Source: Pedobacter cryoconitis (GTDB lineage: Bacteria > Bacteroidota > Bacteroidia > Sphingobacteriales > Sphingobacteriaceae). Taken from it: a stretch of 64,000 nucleotides of DNA. The DNA lies in NCBI RefSeq assembly GCF_014200605.1, contig NZ_JACHCE010000004.1, positions 124,001 to 188,000 on the forward strand, in the 5' to 3' direction. The translations under genes and the position numbers were made by a program. Within the stretch, counting starts at the first letter, position 1; each line of letters starts with the position of its first letter. Shown here piece by piece: positions 11,544-59,684 of this stretch. A model generated the notes under the pieces. It worked only from the letters and a program-made list of their open reading frames with translations, was not told where the DNA came from and ran no database searches.

Positions 11544-13061
11544 ATGCCAATTAAAAACAATTATCAAACACCTAAAATTGCAATCATAGGCTCCGGATTT
11601 GCAGGTATCAGCGCGGCAGCTTACCTGGCTAAAAATGGTTACGAAGTTGACGTATATGAAAAGAATGCGACTATTGGTGGAAGAGCAAGACAATTAGAAA
11701 CTGATAATGGTTATGTTTTTGACATGGGGCCAAGCTGGTACTGGATGCCTGATGTATTCGAGAAATTCTTTAATGATTTTGGTTACAAGGCCAAAGATTT
11801 TTACGAACTGGAACTTTTAGATCCTGGTTTTTCTGTTGTCTACGGACAAAATGAGGTCATGGACATTCCTGCAGACTTTAAAGCGCTGTGTGATACTTTT
11901 GATGCTATTGAACCCGGAAGTGCAGTAAAACTTAAGCAGTTTCTGGAAGAAGCAGCCTATAAATACAAGATTGGAATTGAGAAACTGGTTTATAAACCCG
12001 GTTTGTCTTTGTTGGAATTTGCTGATCCGGATTTGATTAAAGGAGTTTTTAAACTGCAGGTATTTACGTCTTTCAGCAGTCATGTTAAAAAGTATTTTAA
12101 AAATCCAAAATTGATTGCCTTAATGGAGTTCCCTGTGCTTTTTCTGGGTGCTACGCCCGAAGACACACCTGCACTCTATAGTCTGATGAACTATGCCGGT
12201 TTAAAGCTAGGGACCTGGTACCCTAAAGGTGGTTTTGGAAAAGTAATCCTGGCGATGAAAACTGTAGCAGAGAAAAATGGGGCAAAATTCTATTTGAATG
12301 AGTCTGTTTCAGAATTAAAAATTGAAGGGAAAAGAATTAAAGGATTAATCTCTTCAACAAAAAAAAAGGAGTATGATGGCATTATAGCTGCCGCTGACTA
12401 TCATCATGTTGAAGAAAAATTATTGGGTGACAACTATCGGAATTATGGTGAGAAATATTGGAATAAACGCATCCTTGCCCCTTCCTGCCTGATTTTTTAT
12501 CTGGGTGTAAAAAGGAAAACTGAACGCCTGGGACATCATACTTTATTTTTTGATGAAAACCTGAAGCAACATGCTATTGAGATTTACAAAGAACCTCAAT
12601 GGCCAACAAAACCTTTGTTTTATGTATGCTGCCCATCTAAAACAGATACTACAGTTGCACCCGAAGGACACGAAAACTTATTTGTATTGATGCCGCTTGC
12701 CACTAATGTGGTGGATAATGACATTTTAAGAGAAAAATATTTCGCGATAATTATGGACCGCCTGGAGAACTATACAGGTGTACAAATCCGTAAATATATT
12801 GACTATAAAAGCAGCTATTGTGTGAATGATTTTGTAACAGATTATAATGCCTACAAGGGCAATGCTTATGGACTGGCAAATACACTTATGCAAACTGCCA
12901 ATCTAAAACCATCTTTGAAAAACAATAAAATTAAAAATATTTTTTACGCAGGGCAGCTTACCGTTCCCGGCCCGGGGGTTCCTCCATCGATTATTTCAGG
13001 CCATGTAGCGGCTATACAGCTGATAAAATACTTTAACGAAACCTATGAAAGAAATATTTGA
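11544..13061 (+). CDS. crtI: phytoene desaturase (carotenoid biosynthesis)
   Basis: The 505-residue flavoprotein has the N-terminal FAD-binding dinucleotide fold (IAIIGSGFAGISAAAYLAK, then EKNATIGGRARQ) and the C-terminal CrtI signature (FYAGQLTVPGPGVPPSIISG). CrtI desaturates phytoene, usually to lycopene, at the cytoplasmic membrane. It is the first gene of the carotenoid operon: its stop overlaps the crtB start by 17 bases. Length is typical of bacterial CrtI. No MerR/CarH-like light regulator gene and no GGPP synthase gene flank it. Confidence 0.95.
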   Translation: MPIKNNYQTPKIAIIGSGFAGISAAAYLAKNGYEVDVYEKNATIGGRARQLETDNGYVFDMGPSWYWMPDVFEKFFNDFGYKAKDFYELELLDPGFSVVYGQNEVMDIPADFKALCDTFDAIEPGSAVKLKQFLEEAAYKYKIGIEKLVYKPGLSLLEFADPDLIKGVFKLQVFTSFSSHVKKYFKNPKLIALMEFPVLFLGATPEDTPALYSLMNYAGLKLGTWYPKGGFGKVILAMKTVAEKNGAKFYLNESVSELKIEGKRIKGLISSTKKKEYDGIIAAADYHHVEEKLLGDNYRNYGEKYWNKRILAPSCLIFYLGVKRKTERLGHHTLFFDENLKQHAIEIYKEPQWPTKPLFYVCCPSKTDTTVAPEGHENLFVLMPLATNVVDNDILREKYFAIIMDRLENYTGVQIRKYIDYKSSYCVNDFVTDYNAYKGNAYGLANTLMQTANLKPSLKNNKIKNIFYAGQLTVPGPGVPPSIISGHVAAIQLIKYFNETYERNI

Positions 13062-13881
13062 CCAGTTATCTGCAGAATGCAGTAAGATCACAACAAAACG
13101 CTATAGTACCAGTTTTTCACTAGGCATTTATTTCTTAGGAAAAAAGCTGCGTAATCCCATTTATGCTATCTACGGTTTTGTAAGGCTGGCTGATGAAATT
13201 GTAGATAGTTTTCATGATTTTGATAAGCCGTTTTTGCTTGCAAAGTTCAGACAGGATTGTTATGAGGCTGTTGAACATAAAATAAGCCTGAACCCAATAC
13301 TGAATTCCTTTCAGTGCGTAGTCAATGAATATGCAATTGATAGAGAACTGATAGAACTGTTTCTAAAAAGCATGGCAATGGATCTGGATGGGAATAAATA
13401 TACTCCGGATCAATATGATGACTATATATTAGGCTCGGCAGAAGTAGTTGGATTAATGTGTCTGCATGTTTTTACTGAAGGTAATAAAACACAATATGAA
13501 ATGCTCCGTGATCCTGCTATGAAATTAGGCTCTGCATTTCAAAAAGTCAATTTCCTAAGAGATATCAATGCTGATTATTACAATCTGGGCCGCACTTATT
13601 TTCCAAACGTAGATCTCTCTGTGTTTTCTAACCATGAAAAGAAATTGATAGAGAAAGAGATAGAGGAAGAATTTAAACTTGCACTTATAGGGATCAAGCA
13701 ATTGCCAGCCTCATCCAGAAGTGGGGTTTACCTGGCATATATCTATTATAAAGAACTATTTAATAAGATTAAAGGCGCAACAGCAGAAAAAGTAATGTCT
13801 GAAAGAATCCGTATCTCTAATAGTCATAAATTTGGCCTGATGTGTGATTCGATCATCAGATATAAAATGAATGCTATATGA
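13045..13881 (+). CDS. crtB: phytoene synthase
   Basis: The 278-residue protein is a squalene/phytoene synthase: the substrate-binding aspartate motifs are DEIVD (in GFVRLADEIVDSFHD) and DINAD (in FQKVNFLRDINADYYNLGR). It condenses two geranylgeranyl-PP to phytoene, the substrate of the CrtI encoded just upstream. Start at 13045 lies inside the crtI end (17-base overlap), and its end overlaps the next gene by 4 bases (ATGA), so translation is coupled along the operon. Confidence 0.95.
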   Translation: MKEIFDQLSAECSKITTKRYSTSFSLGIYFLGKKLRNPIYAIYGFVRLADEIVDSFHDFDKPFLLAKFRQDCYEAVEHKISLNPILNSFQCVVNEYAIDRELIELFLKSMAMDLDGNKYTPDQYDDYILGSAEVVGLMCLHVFTEGNKTQYEMLRDPAMKLGSAFQKVNFLRDINADYYNLGRTYFPNVDLSVFSNHEKKLIEKEIEEEFKLALIGIKQLPASSRSGVYLAYIYYKELFNKIKGATAEKVMSERIRISNSHKFGLMCDSIIRYKMNAI

Positions 13882-14381
13882 AAGCTTTAATATTATTAAT
13901 CTTATCTATATATACTATTCCGGTAAACCGGGACCTTCCTGCAACAGCAGAATTAAGAAGTCTTTACTATCAGGCTGCATCCAGTAAGACAGCAGCAGAT
14001 GAACTTCAGAAATTGCTGTTAATGGTAGATGGCAATTCACGTCACCTTTTAATTTGTTATAAAGGAGCATCTGAGATGATACAGGCTAAATACGTATTAA
14101 GTCCGTTTACAAAATTCAGAAAGTTCAAAAAAGGTAAGTATTTTATTGAAAGTGCCATTGCCAGCGAGCCGGAAAATTTGGAAATGAGATTTTTAAGATA
14201 TACGATTCAAACCAATCTTCCCTCCTTTCTTGGCTATAATAACTGGATCACTGCAGATAAAAAAATGTTGCTTGAAAGAATTGATAACATACATGACAAG
14301 CATCTAAAACAATTAGTAATCAATTATTTGATGACTTCAAAATATACTACTGATAAGGAACGTAATAACATTAGAAAATGA
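13878..14381 (+). CDS. unknown protein in the carotenoid operon
   Basis: This 167-residue, mostly helical protein starts with a short hydrophobic stretch (about 1-18, probable signal peptide or anchor). It contains AKYVLSPFTKFRKFKKGKYFIESAIASEPENLEMRFLR, given here in effect as a TPR-like helical hairpin around residues 70-115. No enzyme motif was seen. It overlaps crtB by 4 bases at its start and crtZ by 4 bases at its end, so it is a firm member of the operon. Such a gene between crtB and crtZ may help organise membrane carotenoid enzymes, which is inference from position only. Confidence 0.75.
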   Translation: MKALILLILSIYTIPVNRDLPATAELRSLYYQAASSKTAADELQKLLLMVDGNSRHLLICYKGASEMIQAKYVLSPFTKFRKFKKGKYFIESAIASEPENLEMRFLRYTIQTNLPSFLGYNNWITADKKMLLERIDNIHDKHLKQLVINYLMTSKYTTDKERNNIRK

Positions 14382-14851
14382 ATAACCTGATAATTAATAT
14401 ACTTATTGTAACCGGAACTTTTATAGGTATGGAAGGTGTAGCCTGGTTTACACATAAATATATCATGCATGGGCTTTTCTGGTATTTCCACAAGGACCAT
14501 CACCATAAAGATCACGATGGCTTTCTGGAAAAAAATGATTTCTTCTTTTTAATTTTTGCCATTCCCGGTATTCTCTGCCTGGCTGCAGGCTCATTTTATG
14601 GGGATATAATTTCCCTTTGCATTGGAATTGGGATTACAATTTATGGTGCAGCTTATTTTTTTGTACATGATATTTTTATACATCAGCGGTTTAAGATCTT
14701 TAGAAACTCGAATCACTGGTACTTTAAAGCAATCAGAAGAGCTCATAAAATGCATCATAAACACATCAATAAAGAACATGGGGAGTGTTTTGGGATGTTA
14801 TGGGTCCCGTTTAAATATTTCCTGGAGAACAATAAAAAGCCTGAGATATAA
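14378..14851 (+). CDS. crtZ: beta-carotene hydroxylase (fatty acid hydroxylase superfamily)
   Basis: The 157-residue membrane protein carries the histidine boxes of the CrtZ-type non-heme di-iron hydroxylases: HKYIMH, HKDHHHKDH, HDIFIH and HKMHHKH, arranged around TM helices near 5-25, 52-72 and 75-95. CrtZ adds 3-hydroxyl groups to beta-ionone rings, giving cryptoxanthin and zeaxanthin. Ring substrate requires a lycopene cyclase, which is not encoded next to it here. Last gene of the operon; the serine hydrolase gene follows after 85 bases. Confidence 0.93.
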   Translation: MNNLIINILIVTGTFIGMEGVAWFTHKYIMHGLFWYFHKDHHHKDHDGFLEKNDFFFLIFAIPGILCLAAGSFYGDIISLCIGIGITIYGAAYFFVHDIFIHQRFKIFRNSNHWYFKAIRRAHKMHHKHINKEHGECFGMLWVPFKYFLENNKKPEI

Positions 14852-19657: not shown

Positions 19658-20779
19658 TTACCCTGGTAATTTAGGTCTGGGCATATGGTATGAAGTTGCA
19701 GTTACTGCATTCATAAAAGCTACGATCGCTTTAATCTCCTGATCCGTTAATTTTAAGGGCTGAAGCAATTTATCTGTCCTGGGGAATAAATGATCGGCTG
19801 CTGCTTCCTTTTCACTGGGATTCATCATATGCATTCCTGTATTGTAAAGGTTGATTATACCTGTCATGTTATCGAGCAAACCATTATGCATCCATGGGGA
19901 AGTATTCATCACATCACGTAGTGAAGGTGTTCTGAACTTTCCTGTATCTTCTGGTTTTCCGGTGATGAGGTATCTTCCCAGATCTTCATATTCTCTTTTA
20001 TAATATGTGAGGCCAATATTATGAAAGTCTTCATCAGTGAGATACTTTCCATTATGACAGTTCATACATCTCGCTTTGGTCCTGAATAAATGCAGTCCCT
20101 GAATTTCCTGATCATTTAATGCCTGATATTCACCTTCCATAAAACGGTCAAACCGGCTTGTTCTGCTTGTAATAGTTTTCTGAAATTCGGATAAGGCTTC
20201 TAATATTTCAGGATAAGTGATTTGATCAGTGCCATAAGCCTGCTTAAAAAGTGCTTTGTAAGCTTTGATTTTACCCAGTTTCTTAGCCAGCAGACTCGTT
20301 TTCATATTCATTTCATGATGTGCAGTAAGTGGTCCTTCTGCCTGTTGTTCTAAAGTAGCAGCTCTGCCATCCCAGAACAAGCTTTTACGCGCTGCGACAT
20401 TCAGCAGCGAAGGGGTGTTTCTGTTCCCCGTCAGGTGATCATTTCCTAAAGCTACCGAACGTTTGTCAGCCCAGGAAATTTCAGGGTCATGACAGCTGCT
20501 ACAAGATATCTGGTTTGATCCAGATAGTAAAGGATCAAAGAACAAGAGCTGTCCCAGTTTTACTTTAGGCTGTTCCATCAGGTCAAAATACAAAGAGTCC
20601 AATGGTTTTAATGGACTAAATTCAGCCCAATTGACACCGCTGTCAATGGTTGGTGAAGGCCATTGGTTTACAGGTTTACTATATAAAGATCTCAATACAA
20701 CACCCTCATTTTCGCTTAAAAAGGCAGATGTAATTACAAAAATCAGTAAACAGAAAATAAGTGTCAATGTTCTAAACAT
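19658..20779 (-). CDS. di-heme cytochrome c peroxidase (MauG/CcpA superfamily)
   Basis: The 373-residue product starts best at the ATG at 20779 (MFRTLTLIF, a signal/anchor helix); a longer frame to 20848 would run 56 bases into the upstream gene and lacks a signal peptide. Two CxxCH heme-c motifs are present: CSSCH (Cys93, Cys96, His97) and CMNCH (Cys238, Cys241, His242), plus the family's FxTPSLRDV motif. Members reduce H2O2 or oxidise protein or metal-chelate partners in the periplasm. It is the last gene of a four-gene operon with a TonB receptor, DUF4876 and DUF6850, 13 bases after the DUF6850 stop. A role in processing an imported metal complex is inference. Confidence 0.9.
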   Translation of the reverse strand: MFRTLTLIFCLLIFVITSAFLSENEGVVLRSLYSKPVNQWPSPTIDSGVNWAEFSPLKPLDSLYFDLMEQPKVKLGQLLFFDPLLSGSNQISCSSCHDPEISWADKRSVALGNDHLTGNRNTPSLLNVAARKSLFWDGRAATLEQQAEGPLTAHHEMNMKTSLLAKKLGKIKAYKALFKQAYGTDQITYPEILEALSEFQKTITSRTSRFDRFMEGEYQALNDQEIQGLHLFRTKARCMNCHNGKYLTDEDFHNIGLTYYKREYEDLGRYLITGKPEDTGKFRTPSLRDVMNTSPWMHNGLLDNMTGIINLYNTGMHMMNPSEKEAAADHLFPRTDKLLQPLKLTDQEIKAIVAFMNAVTATSYHMPRPKLPG

Positions 20780-20792
20780 AATAAGTTGATAA

Positions 20793-22331
20793 TTAGAAGG
20801 TAATACCAGCAGAAAGGATGCATTGATTCCCTTTATGAAATGAATCAAATGTGGTATGTTCCCAGTTTGATTTCAGAAAAACGCCCATTCCTTTGATCAT
20901 AGGCCTATCCCAGCGCAGAAAGAGATTCAACTGGTTATAGTTTGATGTTAAATAGGCAAAATTTGTCAGCAGCATTTGCTGAGCTGCTGAAGCTGAAACA
21001 AGATCTGGCCAGGATTTAGTTCCTTTTGTATTTCTTAATAAGGTAAAACCAGCTCCAGCCTGAATAAGTGACTGACCTGCGGGCAGCGAAAATTGTGCAT
21101 CAATTGTGGTATGAATAGCTGAGAATTCCATACTCCTTGTTGGCTCAATATATTGTGTTTCATTAGATAATAAACCAAGGTTTGCATTCACTGTCCATGA
21201 AAGGTCTTTGTTTTTTTGCTGTCCGTAAATAAAGGCCAGATTTAAATCACTACGATCGTTCCGGTACCGCTTATCGGAAGAAATTTTCACATAGTTATCC
21301 GGGCCCCGGTTGTCAAATCTGGACTCTACCCCTATTCTTTGTTCCTTTAAAATACTTGCTTTTATACCGTAATGGTTTTGTCCGTTATTTTTAAGATAAG
21401 CAAACTCACCTTTGATTGTTGTTGCTGTCAGATCTGAAACCGGAAGGGCCTGCAAATCTCTGATCACCTTTTCAAAGCTGAATCTGTTGTATGCAAAAGA
21501 AGAAAAAAAGCCATTCTTATTCATGGGGATCAGCTGAACCTGTATACCGGAACCACTCCCATCATAAAATGCATTAAGCTTATTACCCGTCAGTAGTTGA
21601 TTAGCAACCCCCATACCTACCATGTGATATACAACCGGCCCACCCAGCTCACTAAAAAACTTCAACTGGTTATCCTGTGTATATTTTCTGGCAGATAAGC
21701 CTAATGCGATTTCATAGGCCCGATTTACAGGGTGTGAAACACCTATGGAGATTTCCAGATCGGAAGTTACATTTTTGGGCCTCGGATCTATATTCCGGTA
21801 TTCAATTAATGCCCGGTATTTACCAGTTATGCCTAATGTGGTCTGATTAAGTTTTAAAGCATAACCGCCACTAAAAGCATATTCTTCGTATGACAAGTCA
21901 CCACCTACAGTATCAGCCATTACATAAGGGTAAATCAATTGCAGATCTGAACTTTCATTCCAGTTTACCTGATATCTTTTACCATTCTGATAAGATGCAT
22001 TCCCCCAGACCACATCTTTTTTGTTTTTCTGATAGGCATCTGCCTCAAAACCAAATACTTTCTGACCACTTCCTTTCTGCACCTGGTATAGGTCCTGTTT
22101 ATATTGATTAAATCCCAGGCTTAATTGGGTCAGAGAGTTGTTACGGGCAAAATATTTAAGTGCCGGACTATTATAAAAAACATCAGTGAACAGGGATACA
22201 GGTGCATTATTTATCCTTATTCTTTCCCTAAGCCCAGTGGTATCTATCCTGCTTATACGCGTAGTATCATTGGCACAGGCAGTTCCTGTACCAATGATAA
22301 AACATAATGAAATGATATACAAACGTATCAT
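20793..22331 (-). CDS. DUF6850 family outer membrane beta-barrel protein
   Basis: The 512-residue protein has a signal peptide (to about ACAND) and a barrel-like repeat of amphipathic strands ending in an aromatic-rich C-terminus (CILSAGITF). Sequence and context fit the DUF6850 outer-membrane barrels. Its gene begins 7 bases after the DUF4876 gene and is followed after 13 bases by the cytochrome c peroxidase gene. Function unknown; it may be a second pore or a scaffold at the outer membrane for the lipoprotein partner. Confidence 0.75.
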   Translation of the reverse strand: MIRLYIISLCFIIGTGTACANDTTRISRIDTTGLRERIRINNAPVSLFTDVFYNSPALKYFARNNSLTQLSLGFNQYKQDLYQVQKGSGQKVFGFEADAYQKNKKDVVWGNASYQNGKRYQVNWNESSDLQLIYPYVMADTVGGDLSYEEYAFSGGYALKLNQTTLGITGKYRALIEYRNIDPRPKNVTSDLEISIGVSHPVNRAYEIALGLSARKYTQDNQLKFFSELGGPVVYHMVGMGVANQLLTGNKLNAFYDGSGSGIQVQLIPMNKNGFFSSFAYNRFSFEKVIRDLQALPVSDLTATTIKGEFAYLKNNGQNHYGIKASILKEQRIGVESRFDNRGPDNYVKISSDKRYRNDRSDLNLAFIYGQQKNKDLSWTVNANLGLLSNETQYIEPTRSMEFSAIHTTIDAQFSLPAGQSLIQAGAGFTLLRNTKGTKSWPDLVSASAAQQMLLTNFAYLTSNYNQLNLFLRWDRPMIKGMGVFLKSNWEHTTFDSFHKGNQCILSAGITF

Positions 22332-22338
22332 CCTTTTG

Positions 22339-23547
22339 TTATTGCATTAATGAAGGTCTTGCCTCCGCTTCAAAATCTACAGTAGAGTTATTGGTGTCCT
22401 TCAGGATTTGTCTGCCTTCTGCTGTAGTTGATAAAACTTTACGTTTTACACTCTTTCCATATCTTGATTTATCTCCCGCAACTTTACCACAGAATGTCCA
22501 GCCCATATCTAATGACGGATCTGTAACAATCCACTGAAATTCAGATTGTACACTTAGATTAACTGCATCTATTATCCAGCTGTTAGGAATTTTATATTCA
22601 CTTTCATCTATCGGATAAATAGTACCATCAAAAGTTTCATTATAGCTGTAATTATATTTATAGTTACTTAGGAAATCTGCTGAACCTTTAGGAAAACGTG
22701 CTAATACATAAGCTGCATAACCGCGGTTATTAGGAACCAGTTTAGAATATACGTTTTCCATATTAGGGACCTGAGGGTTATCTACATCGTCAGAATCTTC
22801 GTAATACATTTCGAAATCAGATTTTGACAGGTCTATAGATGCACTGTTAAATTCTTTATGATTAATGCCATCTTCACTGATAACAATGGATTGACCAGGC
22901 GCTACCGGATGTTCTTTGCCAGAACCAGGAATTTTGATAACTGCATCTACAGCTACGGCATCTGCCATAATATTCGGTTTATAGTCTTGTTTTATGGTTG
23001 TGAAGAATTTGGACTGAGCGATTACTAAACCATCAGCGTAAAGGATCTGATCAGAGTTGTTGTAGATTTTGAAATATTTATCACCCAGATATTGCTTGCC
23101 TTCGGGAGTTACTGTCCCAGTGTAAAAGATCTCCTGAATTACGAAACCTGATCCTCCCTGATATAAAAACAGTTTCATAGTTTGAGTTTGCTGTTTTCCT
23201 TTCAGAATTACGCCAGACTGGTAAGCCCTTGTTTTTCCTGTAATAGTTTTTCCATCTAACTGATAGGTTATATTACCTTCAAGATTGATATCATACGATC
23301 CATCTGCCAGTGAAATTTTCACCTGTCCATCTGAAACGTTAGTCGTAGTACTCTCTTTTCCACTATTCAGCTCTTTAAATGTAACTTTTAGATCAGAAAG
23401 TTTGATATCAGTAAGGCCTGGAGGGTTTTCCAGTTTAATAGTCAGGTCAACTAATGATAGTTCCTGGAGTTTATCTTTTTTACATGCATTTAAAAACGTT
23501 ATAGCAATTAATGCAAGGCATAAGGAAAGTAATCTTCTCTTCATCAT
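22339..23547 (-). CDS. DUF4876 lipoprotein with lamin-tail-like region
   Basis: The 402-residue protein has a lipoprotein signal peptide with lipobox LNAC (Cys22). Residues about 30-130 form a carboxypeptidase-regulatory/Ig-like sandwich; from about 140 the sequence (VIQEIFYTGT then YFKIYNNSDQILYADGLVI) resembles the lamin-tail domain fold, with a further region to 402. This fits DUF4876. It lies between the TonB receptor gene (21 bases) and the DUF6850 gene (7 bases), so it may be the SusD-like surface ligand binder for this receptor. That role is inference. Confidence 0.8.
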   Translation of the reverse strand: MMKRRLLSLCLALIAITFLNACKKDKLQELSLVDLTIKLENPPGLTDIKLSDLKVTFKELNSGKESTTTNVSDGQVKISLADGSYDINLEGNITYQLDGKTITGKTRAYQSGVILKGKQQTQTMKLFLYQGGSGFVIQEIFYTGTVTPEGKQYLGDKYFKIYNNSDQILYADGLVIAQSKFFTTIKQDYKPNIMADAVAVDAVIKIPGSGKEHPVAPGQSIVISEDGINHKEFNSASIDLSKSDFEMYYEDSDDVDNPQVPNMENVYSKLVPNNRGYAAYVLARFPKGSADFLSNYKYNYSYNETFDGTIYPIDESEYKIPNSWIIDAVNLSVQSEFQWIVTDPSLDMGWTFCGKVAGDKSRYGKSVKRKVLSTTAEGRQILKDTNNSTVDFEAEARPSLMQ

Positions 23548-23568
23548 TCTATTGTTTTATTGAAATTA

Positions 23569-26250
23569 TTATATATTAAAATTCAGTTCCATCCCAAAAT
23601 ATGGGCTGCTAAACCCAGACCGTCTGATTTTAACTCCTTTCACGACATAATCAGGTGCATAATTGAAGATTCTATTTACAAACATGGATACCCTGATTTT
23701 ATCTTTAAAATTCCTGGAGGCTTTGAAATTGACATTCATATTCATTGGAACACTGCTTTTTTCGAACACACCTTCACTATATTCTGTATTGAGCCATTGC
23801 AGCACTTTATCTTTTTTATCGGCTTCGGTATACGGAAACTGATTACCGTTTACGTCTATATAATGACTTGGTGTCCCGCTTTTACGTGCATTCTGTTTAC
23901 TTGAAAACCATTGACACTGAATGGCAGTTGAAAATTCAAATCCGATTTTAGGAATATAGGTATCTATAATCATGTTGGTATTTAGCTGCTGTCTGATAAA
24001 CCCATCATTATCTGGATAAAGACCTGCATATTGTGCCTTCTTTCCATCTATAATCAAGTCTTCTTTGATCCACTTATATACAGGCAGGCTATTTTCATAA
24101 ACAGATTTAAACCATGCCCCATTTAAGGTGATCCTTGTATTAATGTGTTTTATTCGCCTGGAGGTAAACTGATATTCTATACCTTCTTTTGTTAAAGCAC
24201 TGCCATTTACTGGTATATTATAAATAATCAATTCTTTTAAATTCTCATATTCCATCGCCTCAAGTGCAGGCGGACCTGTTAACAGATTCGGATCTATATT
24301 GGCAGTATTATACTTTTGATAAGCGAGTGATTTAAAGTCCGATCCTTTTCTGAATCCGGATGTTAGCCGTTCTTGAAAATAAGTTAGTGACAAACGGTTA
24401 CCGTCTATAGAGATATCAGTCCTTAGCTCCCATTTTTTATTCCTTGCTGCAACAAGGTCTTTATTAACAGGAAGGATTTTATAAGTCATCAGGTTAGCAC
24501 GTCTGTAGGCCGGGTTATTATGATAGTAATTGAGCTGTACCAAATCTTTGTAGTAATAATCAGGATAAAGCTGTTCCGTAACAGGAAACATAGTTTGCCA
24601 GCCAAAACCTCCTCCAAACCCGATAACCAACTGTTTTCTGCCTAAATCAATTTTAGGTAGTGTCCATTGTGCGTTGATACGGGGATCTGTATTAAACTGA
24701 CCATTCAATTTATAGTTTACAGGCAAATTGAACATCGCCATACTGCGTAGTCCGGCTGCCATTTTAAATTCGTGCCTCCCTATATTAAAATCCAGCTGAT
24801 CTTCGGCAAAGAAAGACAGGTCCTCACTTGCAGGAATATCATTATAAGCTCTTGGCCTGCTTGTCATTCCTGGTGATGGAGGAAATAAAGGATTATAAAC
24901 CTGTCCCAGACCATTGTTTTTACTATAATTACCTTCTGCGCCCAATAAGATGCGATGGTTAACCACTCCTGTTTTAAAACCAAGATTTGCCATTGCTTTC
25001 AGGTAACCGGTAACAGGTTTGCCATCTACTAATAAATGAGCAGTGTACTGTGGTGTCAGATAGGGAGCATCGTGAGCACCCTGTTCGGTTGTAATTGGTA
25101 ATATCTGTGCACTACCCGCCTGTACCCATTTAGTCTGATCAATTTTATCACGCTGCAAGCTCAGTGAAGAATAGATATCAATTGATTTAAGCAATTGAAC
25201 TTCATTAAATTTAAGAGTAAAATTATTATTGAATGCCATTCTGTTATTGGATGACTGATACCGGTCAACCAATTGATAACCTGCATCTGGGTCTGTACGC
25301 TGATTATCAAAAGAACCTCCATAATCCAGACTGCTATTCCATGACAGATTAAAGGAGTTGCTTTCCCAAAGTTTATGGAGTCTGACCGATGCATTTAACC
25401 GTTTATAGTTTTCAAAACGATCTCTTGGATCGGACACCGAATTCAAATAGTCAATTCCTGCATTAAGGGTAATTTTCTTTTCAGGAATCTCAAAACCTTT
25501 GCCCACATAGAATAATTTACTAAAACCATCAGCTTTGAATCTGGCTTCTAATGCACTTATCCCTTGTTTACGTTCTATTTTTACTAAACCGCTAGTCAGA
25601 TTTCCATATTGAACTGATGGAATACCGCGTACTACTTCTACTTTTTCTATCTGATCGGTTGAAAGTGAACGCATATCCACACCTTTACCTGTTATATTAC
25701 GTTTAGAGTTCAAATCAGATTTCGTATCAAACCCGGTAGTATACTGCATATTGGCCCTTGTATTAATTGGGGCCCCATCTATATAAAAAGCTGTACCTAA
25801 AGAGGAAATGTCATAGTTTTCATCAGCAATACCCACTTCTCTTAGCCTGATCAGGTTTGCAGAAGTCAGATTAGGATCTTTGGATCTTCCACCAGGTAAT
25901 AATTCCAGCAGATCTGCAAAACTTGAGGGCTGCAAATGCTGCATCGCCTTATGGTCAATAATAGATGAGCTGCTTAGACCTTTAGATTCTGAAGCTGTAA
26001 TGACTACTTCATTGAGCTCAAACTCATTTTTCTGTTCTTCCTGATTTCTTTTTAATGCTGCCTGAATCTTTTTCAGTTCTGCCGGAGTTATTTTTAAAGT
26101 GTCCGTGCTGACAGTCTTATGTTTTTGAGGCTTTGGATTTTTCTGCTGGGACAGCACTGGTAAACCAGAAAACACCAGCAAGAATGTAAAGACTACCCAG
26201 GGTCTTTTACTTGAATAAACACAAAAATAATCACCCCTACTCATGAACAC
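23569..26250 (-). CDS. TonB-dependent receptor of the DUF4876/DUF6850 locus
   Basis: The 893-residue protein has a hydrophobic export segment (about 18-36, WVVFTFLLVFSGLPVLSQQ), a short linker without a carboxypeptidase-regulatory domain, a plug (about 80-215, VVITASESKGLSSSSIIDHKAM, LLELLPGG, IEKVEVVRGIPSVQYGNLTSG) and a barrel ending FGMELNFNI. The VEVVRGIPSVQYG segment is the standard siderophore/cobalamin-type plug signature. It is the first gene of the four-gene unit; promoter box at 26314-26321 and an inverted repeat at 26321-26352 precede it. The ligand is unknown; a metal complex is suggested by the peroxidase partner. Confidence 0.9.
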   Translation of the reverse strand: MFMSRGDYFCVYSSKRPWVVFTFLLVFSGLPVLSQQKNPKPQKHKTVSTDTLKITPAELKKIQAALKRNQEEQKNEFELNEVVITASESKGLSSSSIIDHKAMQHLQPSSFADLLELLPGGRSKDPNLTSANLIRLREVGIADENYDISSLGTAFYIDGAPINTRANMQYTTGFDTKSDLNSKRNITGKGVDMRSLSTDQIEKVEVVRGIPSVQYGNLTSGLVKIERKQGISALEARFKADGFSKLFYVGKGFEIPEKKITLNAGIDYLNSVSDPRDRFENYKRLNASVRLHKLWESNSFNLSWNSSLDYGGSFDNQRTDPDAGYQLVDRYQSSNNRMAFNNNFTLKFNEVQLLKSIDIYSSLSLQRDKIDQTKWVQAGSAQILPITTEQGAHDAPYLTPQYTAHLLVDGKPVTGYLKAMANLGFKTGVVNHRILLGAEGNYSKNNGLGQVYNPLFPPSPGMTSRPRAYNDIPASEDLSFFAEDQLDFNIGRHEFKMAAGLRSMAMFNLPVNYKLNGQFNTDPRINAQWTLPKIDLGRKQLVIGFGGGFGWQTMFPVTEQLYPDYYYKDLVQLNYYHNNPAYRRANLMTYKILPVNKDLVAARNKKWELRTDISIDGNRLSLTYFQERLTSGFRKGSDFKSLAYQKYNTANIDPNLLTGPPALEAMEYENLKELIIYNIPVNGSALTKEGIEYQFTSRRIKHINTRITLNGAWFKSVYENSLPVYKWIKEDLIIDGKKAQYAGLYPDNDGFIRQQLNTNMIIDTYIPKIGFEFSTAIQCQWFSSKQNARKSGTPSHYIDVNGNQFPYTEADKKDKVLQWLNTEYSEGVFEKSSVPMNMNVNFKASRNFKDKIRVSMFVNRIFNYAPDYVVKGVKIRRSGFSSPYFGMELNFNI

Positions 26251-26313: not shown

Positions 26314-26352
26314 CAAAAGTAATTTTTATTCCTTATAAAAAGAATAAAAATT
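26314..26352 (-). promoter_or_regulatory. promoter and candidate operator of the TonB/DUF4876/DUF6850/peroxidase operon
   Basis: On the minus strand TACTTTTG (26321-26314) matches the -7 consensus. Abutting it is a perfect inverted repeat, AATTTTTATTC (26321-26331) and GAATAAAAATT (26342-26352), with a 10-base spacer, lying over the -33 region. Confidence 0.45.
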
Positions 26353-58613: not shown

Positions 58614-58817
58614 ATGACATCAATCACTCCTGTTTTTAGAATATTTGATTACGCTAAAGCAATTGAATTCTACATAGACTGGCCTGGTTTTTCGATTGAC
58701 AGTATTCTTTTAAACCTGTCCGAACATCATGGAGACTGCACTCCTGGTGCAAGTGCCTGTATTGATGGTTTTGAAAATCTGCAAGATTACCACCATTTAC
58801 TGATTAAAAAGAGTTAA
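58614..58817 (+). pseudogene. glyoxalase/bleomycin resistance-like gene with internal deletion
   Basis: The 67-residue frame starts like the glyoxalase-superfamily proteins of this group (TSITPVFRIFDYAKAIEFYIDWPGF), but jumps from FSID directly to SILLNLSEHHGDCTPGA, where the family has about 15-20 more residues, and ends after LLIKKS, well short of the second half with its metal-site residues. The reading frame is preserved across the deletion, but the truncated C-terminus argues for a dead gene. Its end overlaps the convergent methyltransferase gene by 4 bases. Confidence 0.75.
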
Positions 58818-59488
58818 ATCAGGGGCTTTACAGCGTTGATAATTATAATATCACGCTCCACATCCATACCAGCATTGCTTCTCACCTTTTCGGTCTGAAG
58901 ATTTACGCTCCTGATTTTAAAACCACTGCTAAGTAACAACTCTTCTGCTTCCTGCTGACTATATAGCTGAAAATCATATTGTGTAAAAGGGAGTTTCTCC
59001 ATGAATTCACGTGATCCGAAGGTCAAACTAAATAGGCCACCAGGTTTAAGTACTCTTAAAATTTCGGCAGCATAAGCTTTGGGATTCCTCCAGAAATACA
59101 ATGTATTCACCGTAAATATCCTGGTAAAAAAATCAGCCGCAAAATTCAGCTTTTCTCCATCTGACAAAGAGAAATCAGCCCTGCCCGATGTTACAAATGA
59201 CTCGTTTAATTTGACAGCTTCACTGATCATCAGGGAGGAAATATCAACCCCGTAATAAAGTAAATACTTAATATCTTTTAAAAGCTGGATAACATGAGAG
59301 CCATTGCCCGGCCCGATTTCCAATACAACATCATTAGGTTTCAGATTCAGTTCCGAAATAGTCAGTGTAATCATATTGCCATTATTAATAGCCATTGATT
59401 CAGCTGTCCTTAATCCCTTATCTCCGCTTGGGCAACCTAATTGACCTGCTATTTCCTTAAAATCTGGCTTATTAGGAGTTTCAGACAT
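58814..59488 (-). CDS. class I SAM-dependent methyltransferase
   Basis: The 224-residue protein carries the Rossmann methyltransferase fold with motif I VLEIGPGNGSH, acidic post-I YGVDIS, motif II-like FTVNTLYFWRNP and LRVLKPGGLFSLTFG. It is in the UbiE/Methyltransf_11 group. The N-terminal region (about 1-50) includes a cysteine and the motif QLGCPSGDKG. Substrate is unknown. Upstream there is a perfect 10-base inverted repeat with a 6-base loop (59534-59559). Confidence 0.88.
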   Translation of the reverse strand: MSETPNKPDFKEIAGQLGCPSGDKGLRTAESMAINNGNMITLTISELNLKPNDVVLEIGPGNGSHVIQLLKDIKYLLYYGVDISSLMISEAVKLNESFVTSGRADFSLSDGEKLNFAADFFTRIFTVNTLYFWRNPKAYAAEILRVLKPGGLFSLTFGSREFMEKLPFTQYDFQLYSQQEAEELLLSSGFKIRSVNLQTEKVRSNAGMDVERDIIIINAVKPLI

Positions 59489-59559: not shown

Positions 59560-59684
59560 CCAGGATTTAATAAATATTAAGAACACAGTATTTCCCTGCT
59601 TTGGTAGCACAAAGGTACATTATTTAGAATCATTCTACACTAATTAAATCTTTGTTACACTTTGATGACAAAGAAACCTGAAAC

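Follow-up and report, generated by a model that had tools for sequence, protein, structure and literature searches.

Loci that encode a DUF4876 lipoprotein rank among the more strongly iron-starvation-induced loci in gut and oral Bacteroidota. Under iron depletion, PG1019-PG1022 of Porphyromonas gingivalis rises 20.8-214.5-fold, while in Bacteroides thetaiotaomicron BT3625-BT3633 rises about 37-128-fold and the BT1933-BT1939 block, which holds BT1938-BT1939, 3.5-7.4-fold (PMC10434189). A PG1019 homologue rises also under hemin limitation (PMC10470040). Common to BT3625-33, BT1938-39 and PG1019-22 is the combination of a TonB receptor with one or more DUF4876 lipoproteins, and the literature searched gives no defined substrate for any of the three.

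The Pedobacter cryoconitis operon discussed here has the layout of the BT3625-33 type, in which DUF4876 comes after a TonB receptor in the same operon. It occupies positions 19658-26250, on the minus strand, of the window (the whole stretch of 64,000 nucleotides that was analysed), and two further genes, for a DUF6850 barrel and for a CxxCH enzyme with two hemes, complete it. We propose that it represents an iron-starvation-induced acquisition operon of Bacteroidota, in which an optional MauG/MbnH-type enzyme would oxidise the imported iron chelate. To this reading as a whole we give about equal belief and doubt.

The four genes and their products

Between consecutive genes lie 21, 7 and 13 bases. 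The open reading frames, the Pfam matches and the recurring order bear out the sequence-only reading that four genes of these families form a single operon (Table 1). A second complete four-gene copy is present in the same genome (L026, C1 at about 333-340 kb). Judging from relatives, the receptor probably starts at the ATG at 26244 rather than at the GTG at 26250, and for the di-heme enzyme an ATG start at 20779 is favoured. The Pfam neighbours of the enzyme are DUF6850, DUF4876 and MarC. No stable hairpin was found between the enzyme gene and MarC (z −0.39), so that read-through into MarC is possible. At another place in the window, 11544-14851, overlapping genes encode a CrtI-type amine oxidoreductase, a squalene/phytoene synthase, an unassigned 167-aa protein and a fatty-acid/carotene hydroxylase, which is likely a carotenoid cluster.

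Table 1. Features of the operon, in window coordinates.
Feature	Position	Strand	Basis
TonB-dependent outer-membrane receptor, 891-893 aa	23569..26250	-	Plug PF07715 3.4e-10 (Pfam); conserved first gene of operon
DUF4876 lipoprotein, 402 aa, lipobox Cys22	22339..23547	-	PF16215 205 bits; BT_1938 (PDB 4q1z) homologue
DUF6850 outer-membrane beta-barrel, 512 aa	20793..22331	-	PF21012 310 bits, full length
MauG/MbnH-type di-heme c-type enzyme, 373 aa, CxxCH at residues 93-97 and 238-242, predicted axial Tyr312	19658..20779	-	PF03150 6.6e-54
Putative iron-regulator box TTGGATTAAGTCTAAATAA, half-sites TTGGA / TCTAA	26287..26305	-	Also before second operon copy and relatives

With the siderophore-receptor model TIGR01783 the receptor reaches 31.9 bits, far under the cut-off of 223.5 and over the plug region only, and the siderophore-type plug that had been assigned to it is thus not upheld. 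A search by sequence found no solved relatives of the receptor. The DUF4876 lipoprotein covers the PF16215 profile in full (205.3 bits against a curated cut-off of 27.9, E 1.1e-60). Its lipobox Cys22 is invariant in the A2 and A4 sequence sets, and BT_1938 (4q1z) is a full-length solved relative, with E-values of 3.5e-20 by sequence and 5.5e-16 by Foldseek. The predicted model is poor (pLDDT 64); its N-terminal part resembles CnaB/transthyretin-like domains found in surface proteins of Bacteroidota (Z up to 9.2). A lamin-tail-like domain had also been suggested for this protein; no Pfam match to one and no such fold among the listed structural matches was found, in a model too poor in its C-terminal half to speak against one.

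The third protein matches PF21012 with 310.5 bits against a curated cut-off of 27 (positions 1-464 of 464, E 3.2e-92). In its AF2 model (pLDDT 80), about 18 strands form a barrel and helices stand at the N-terminus, in agreement with the second outer-membrane barrel that had been read from the sequence. The model matches porin-like outer-membrane barrels generally (Z up to 17.9), with no specific relative among these generic matches. No solved relatives of DUF6850 were found by sequence, and the literature search gave no paper naming the family.

In the fourth protein, Pfam finds CCP_MauG and a second cytochrome c domain. Its scores are under the cut-offs of the MauG equivalog TIGR03791 (217.3 bits, cut-off 443.85) and of the MbnH model TIGR04039 (208.6 bits, cut-off 362.85). 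The nearest solved structure to the C-terminal half is 6e1c, an entry titled 'Di-heme enzyme' that we take to be MbnH. Tyr312 sits at the column of the classical CCP axial Met; it is conserved without exception in 18 homologues and aligns with a Tyr of 6e1c. Tyr is a heme ligand in both MauG and MbnH, the axial-Met position of MauG being held by Tyr294. The enzyme is of the MauG/MbnH type in the broad sense, with two CxxCH hemes and a Tyr instead of Met as the predicted axial ligand. A classical bacterial cytochrome c peroxidase was considered and rejected, as the axial column of the high-potential heme holds Tyr, not Met. Of the periplasmic CxxCH/CxxCH peroxidase named earlier, the two CxxCH motifs and the CCP_MauG assignment are therefore retained, while the class changes to MauG/MbnH-type.

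Members of the enzyme's subfamily share a conserved Y..P..WP.P-like motif at the N-terminus. An MbnP partner (PF20243) is absent beside the enzyme; MbnP is found elsewhere in the genome, in an MbnP-MbnH tandem that is separate from the operon (L058 and L060, C3 at about 381-384 kb). The genome carries further CCP_MauG proteins as well. Two di-heme proteins of ca 600 aa (L061:649-2436 and L062:553-2427) have a long N-terminal extension before the CCP_MauG domain, and the gene of the former adjoins a TonB-receptor-like gene.

Conservation in Bacteroidota

Of 395 evenly sampled Bacteroidota genomes, 37 have DUF4876. In 35 of them DUF6850 scores above its Pfam cut-off, and a home-made profile recovers it in the remaining two (L035, L041). 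As a rule it lies in the DUF4876 operon, immediately downstream of DUF4876. The order receptor-DUF4876-DUF6850, all on the same strand, is seen in about 50 neighbourhoods, with a spacing usually within a few dozen bases; in a few exceptions (L006, L037, L038 and L053) there is an additional DUF4876 gene, another gene is inserted, or DUF6850 follows some genes further on. This gene order recurs in Pedobacter, Flavobacterium, Riemerella and others, far beyond chance, and the receptor, DUF4876 and DUF6850 are the core of the operon, travelling together throughout Bacteroidota.

The di-heme enzyme stands directly behind DUF6850 in only 19 of the 49 loci used for the tree. It is therefore an optional fourth gene, and not the integral part of the operon that the sequence-only reading had made of it; the conserved order which that reading had proposed to look for in Bacteroidota holds for the triad. 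Enzyme-bearing operons occur in Pedobacter, Flavobacterium, Riemerella columbina and several further families, and the named genera, in a sample of ca 400 genomes, do no more than suggest a tie to aerobic life. On a tree of the concatenated triad, made with a quick method and with its root and some branches unsure, the enzyme label changes 6 times as compared to a shuffled mean of 15.3, all changes being inside one half of 28 rows. In other loci the triad is accompanied by HEAT-repeat or T9SS-sorted proteins, by unrelated genes, or, in L003, by PepSY, ABC and DUF4857 genes, a cassette that there occupies the slot held elsewhere by the enzyme.

Outside DUF4876 operons, the enzyme subfamily is found as orphan genes and, in at least 7 genomes, behind SusC/SusD/lipoprotein operons. 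The sister enzymes of L129-L134 and L137 end SusC-SusD operons whose lipoproteins are unrelated to DUF4876.

The upstream box and the probable link to iron

The box pattern TTRGA-N5-TCTAAATAA, with TCTAAAT as its second half, is present before both operon copies of this genome and before Pedobacter operons, and its TCTAAAT half upstream of Flavobacterium operons. In the window, a Bacteroidota-type −7 element, TACTTTTG (26314-26321), lies immediately upstream of the box; it is of the TAnnTTTG pattern, which is common by chance. Of the 50 receptors, 19 have the half-site upstream where shuffles predict 4.9, and for the two-part box the corresponding figures are 8 and 0.2. Genome-wide there are 5 exact matches to the box, at both operon copies, at an imelysin gene, at an acyl-CoA dehydrogenase-like gene and in the vicinity of IucA/IucC, the last being ca 230 bases past the 3' end of this siderophore-synthesis gene. 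Allowing one mismatch adds a siderophore-interacting protein (SIP), aconitase, sdhC, an ECF sigma factor and several TonB receptors.

It is important to point out that the raw matches, 54 against 50 for the reversed control, are not above the control, and the case for the box rests therefore on position and neighbouring genes. Intergenic genome matches amount to 26 of 31 for the box pattern and 3 of 30 for the reversed control, in a list that was classified after viewing and in which some matches overlap (two strands of one site). We read the box as a putative iron-regulator operator. A canonical Fur box (GATAATGATAATCATTATC) was also considered, but upstream of nearly all loci it does no better than shuffles, and the literature search on the TCTAAA box recognised no fitting paper.

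In G002, where the enzyme gene stands detached, a box-like site lies 47 bases before it and hints at joint control; by chance, such a half-site is expected in about a tenth of upstream regions. Of the SusC/SusD-MauG operons, 1 of 7 has a possible site upstream. Small Cys-rich proteins (MCKT...HC..C...IW), which have no Pfam or NCBIfam match where tested, are encoded directly behind a box at L071:1610-1930 and L085:1089-1427 and are possible further members of the iron regulon. In the window, a one-mismatch copy at 59620-59638, upstream of a methyltransferase gene (58814-59488), may be there by chance.

The operon can thus be described as a candidate outer-membrane acquisition system for a metal source. 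Iron is the most likely metal, because the box is common to iron genes of the genome and because homologous loci are induced by iron starvation. The uptake of a metal chelate that had been suggested from the sequence is in this way supported, and given its likely metal.

Proposed mechanism and alternatives

In the mechanism that we propose, the surface-anchored DUF4876 lipoprotein would catch the iron source and pass it to the TonB-dependent receptor, and the DUF6850 barrel may act as a second outer-membrane channel that cooperates with these two. The periplasmic di-heme enzyme would then oxidise the imported iron chelate or ligand, using peroxide or oxygen, and iron would be freed. It would fill the slot that the PepSY/ABC/DUF4857 cassette has in related operons. 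A more far-reaching version is that the enzyme is the oxidative counterpart of a PepSY-type cassette, which destroys or oxidises the imported iron chelator in the periplasm and frees the iron. We consider this version rather doubtful, and iron release by such chelator oxidation is not described for TonB systems in the literature searched. Of the "uptake-and-oxidation system" originally envisaged, the uptake is consequently the supported half, while the oxidation step is kept here in conditional form.

The enzyme could instead be involved in protein maturation, that is, create a metal or ligand site by oxidising a Trp or Tyr in one of the three neighbours (receptor, DUF4876 or DUF6850), as MbnH does on MbnP. 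Its nearest characterised relatives, MauG and MbnH, have proteins as their known substrates, which counts against a chelate, and the predicted Tyr ligand is shared with MbnH. Moreover, MbnP/MbnH pairs also adjoin TonB receptors (PMC3621798). The best candidate residue for maturation, W324 of DUF4876, is present in 79% of the enzyme-bearing operons and in 0% of the distant ones. However, it is also present in 56% of the same-clade operons that lack the enzyme, and none of the aromatic residues in the three candidate partner proteins follows the presence of the enzyme. An invariant Trp like that of MbnP was sought in DUF4876 across the enzyme-bearing loci and is absent. The triad without the enzyme, the lack of any Trp or Tyr that tracks it and the different lipoproteins beside the sister enzymes argue for chelate oxidation over maturation of a neighbour, which we regard as improbable; with modest confidence, the substrate would be the imported chelate.

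Two further options leave both the ligand and the partner proteins unprocessed or unlinked to the enzyme. Membership of the di-haem peroxidase superfamily and occurrence in Pedobacter, Flavobacterium and Riemerella operons would be consistent with a protective role, in which the enzyme clears peroxide formed as iron enters an aerobic periplasm. Against this, the genome has other CCP_MauG proteins, and Tyr stands where classical peroxidases have their axial Met, as is typical of MauG-type oxidases, whose peroxidase activity is poor; we find this role quite unlikely. The other option is that the triad constitutes the system and the fourth gene is loosely attached, being co-transcribed without a functional link. 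The limited number of enzyme-bearing loci, the copies elsewhere and at least 5 label changes on the triad tree point in this direction. Several orphan copies (G253, G210, G300 and G359) are without the box and have no clear transport operon nearby, so that the enzyme may serve a job unrelated to uptake. However, the enzyme gene always has its slot immediately after DUF6850, in distant families and in the two copies of this genome alike, and the label is clustered on the tree, which makes a mere passenger very unlikely in our view.

Finally, the operon, with chelate oxidation as the preferred reading of its enzyme, can be compared to known systems. MauG, which matures the cofactor of methylamine dehydrogenase, resembles the enzyme in di-heme fold, length and the Tyr replacing the axial Met, but the enzyme has only 217 bits against the cut-off of 444 and no methylamine dehydrogenase context. 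In MbnT-MbnP-MbnH, a TonB receptor, a partner protein and a MauG-like di-heme enzyme with a Tyr ligand are likewise encoded together; the differences are the copper context, linked to methanobactin, and a partner that is MbnP (PF20243) and not DUF4876. The xenosiderophore system XusABC (BT2063-2065) is similar in having an iron-regulated TonB receptor, a surface lipoprotein and a redox-type accessory protein. Its own parts are, however, a DUF4374 lipoprotein and a PepSY protein, neither of which is among the Pfam matches of the four genes here, and it is without DUF4876, DUF6850 and a di-heme enzyme. The iron-starvation loci of B. thetaiotaomicron and P. gingivalis have PepSY/ABC/DUF4857 or other genes where the MauG-like enzyme stands here, and the BT3625-type layout also occurs with DUF6850, as seen in L003. 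To the picture of DUF4876 loci the analysis adds DUF6850 as a constant third part, the operator-like box and a MauG-type oxidase in some of the operons, which opens a direct test of the iron source of the triad and of whether the substrate of a MauG-like enzyme is a small molecule or a partner of the receptor.
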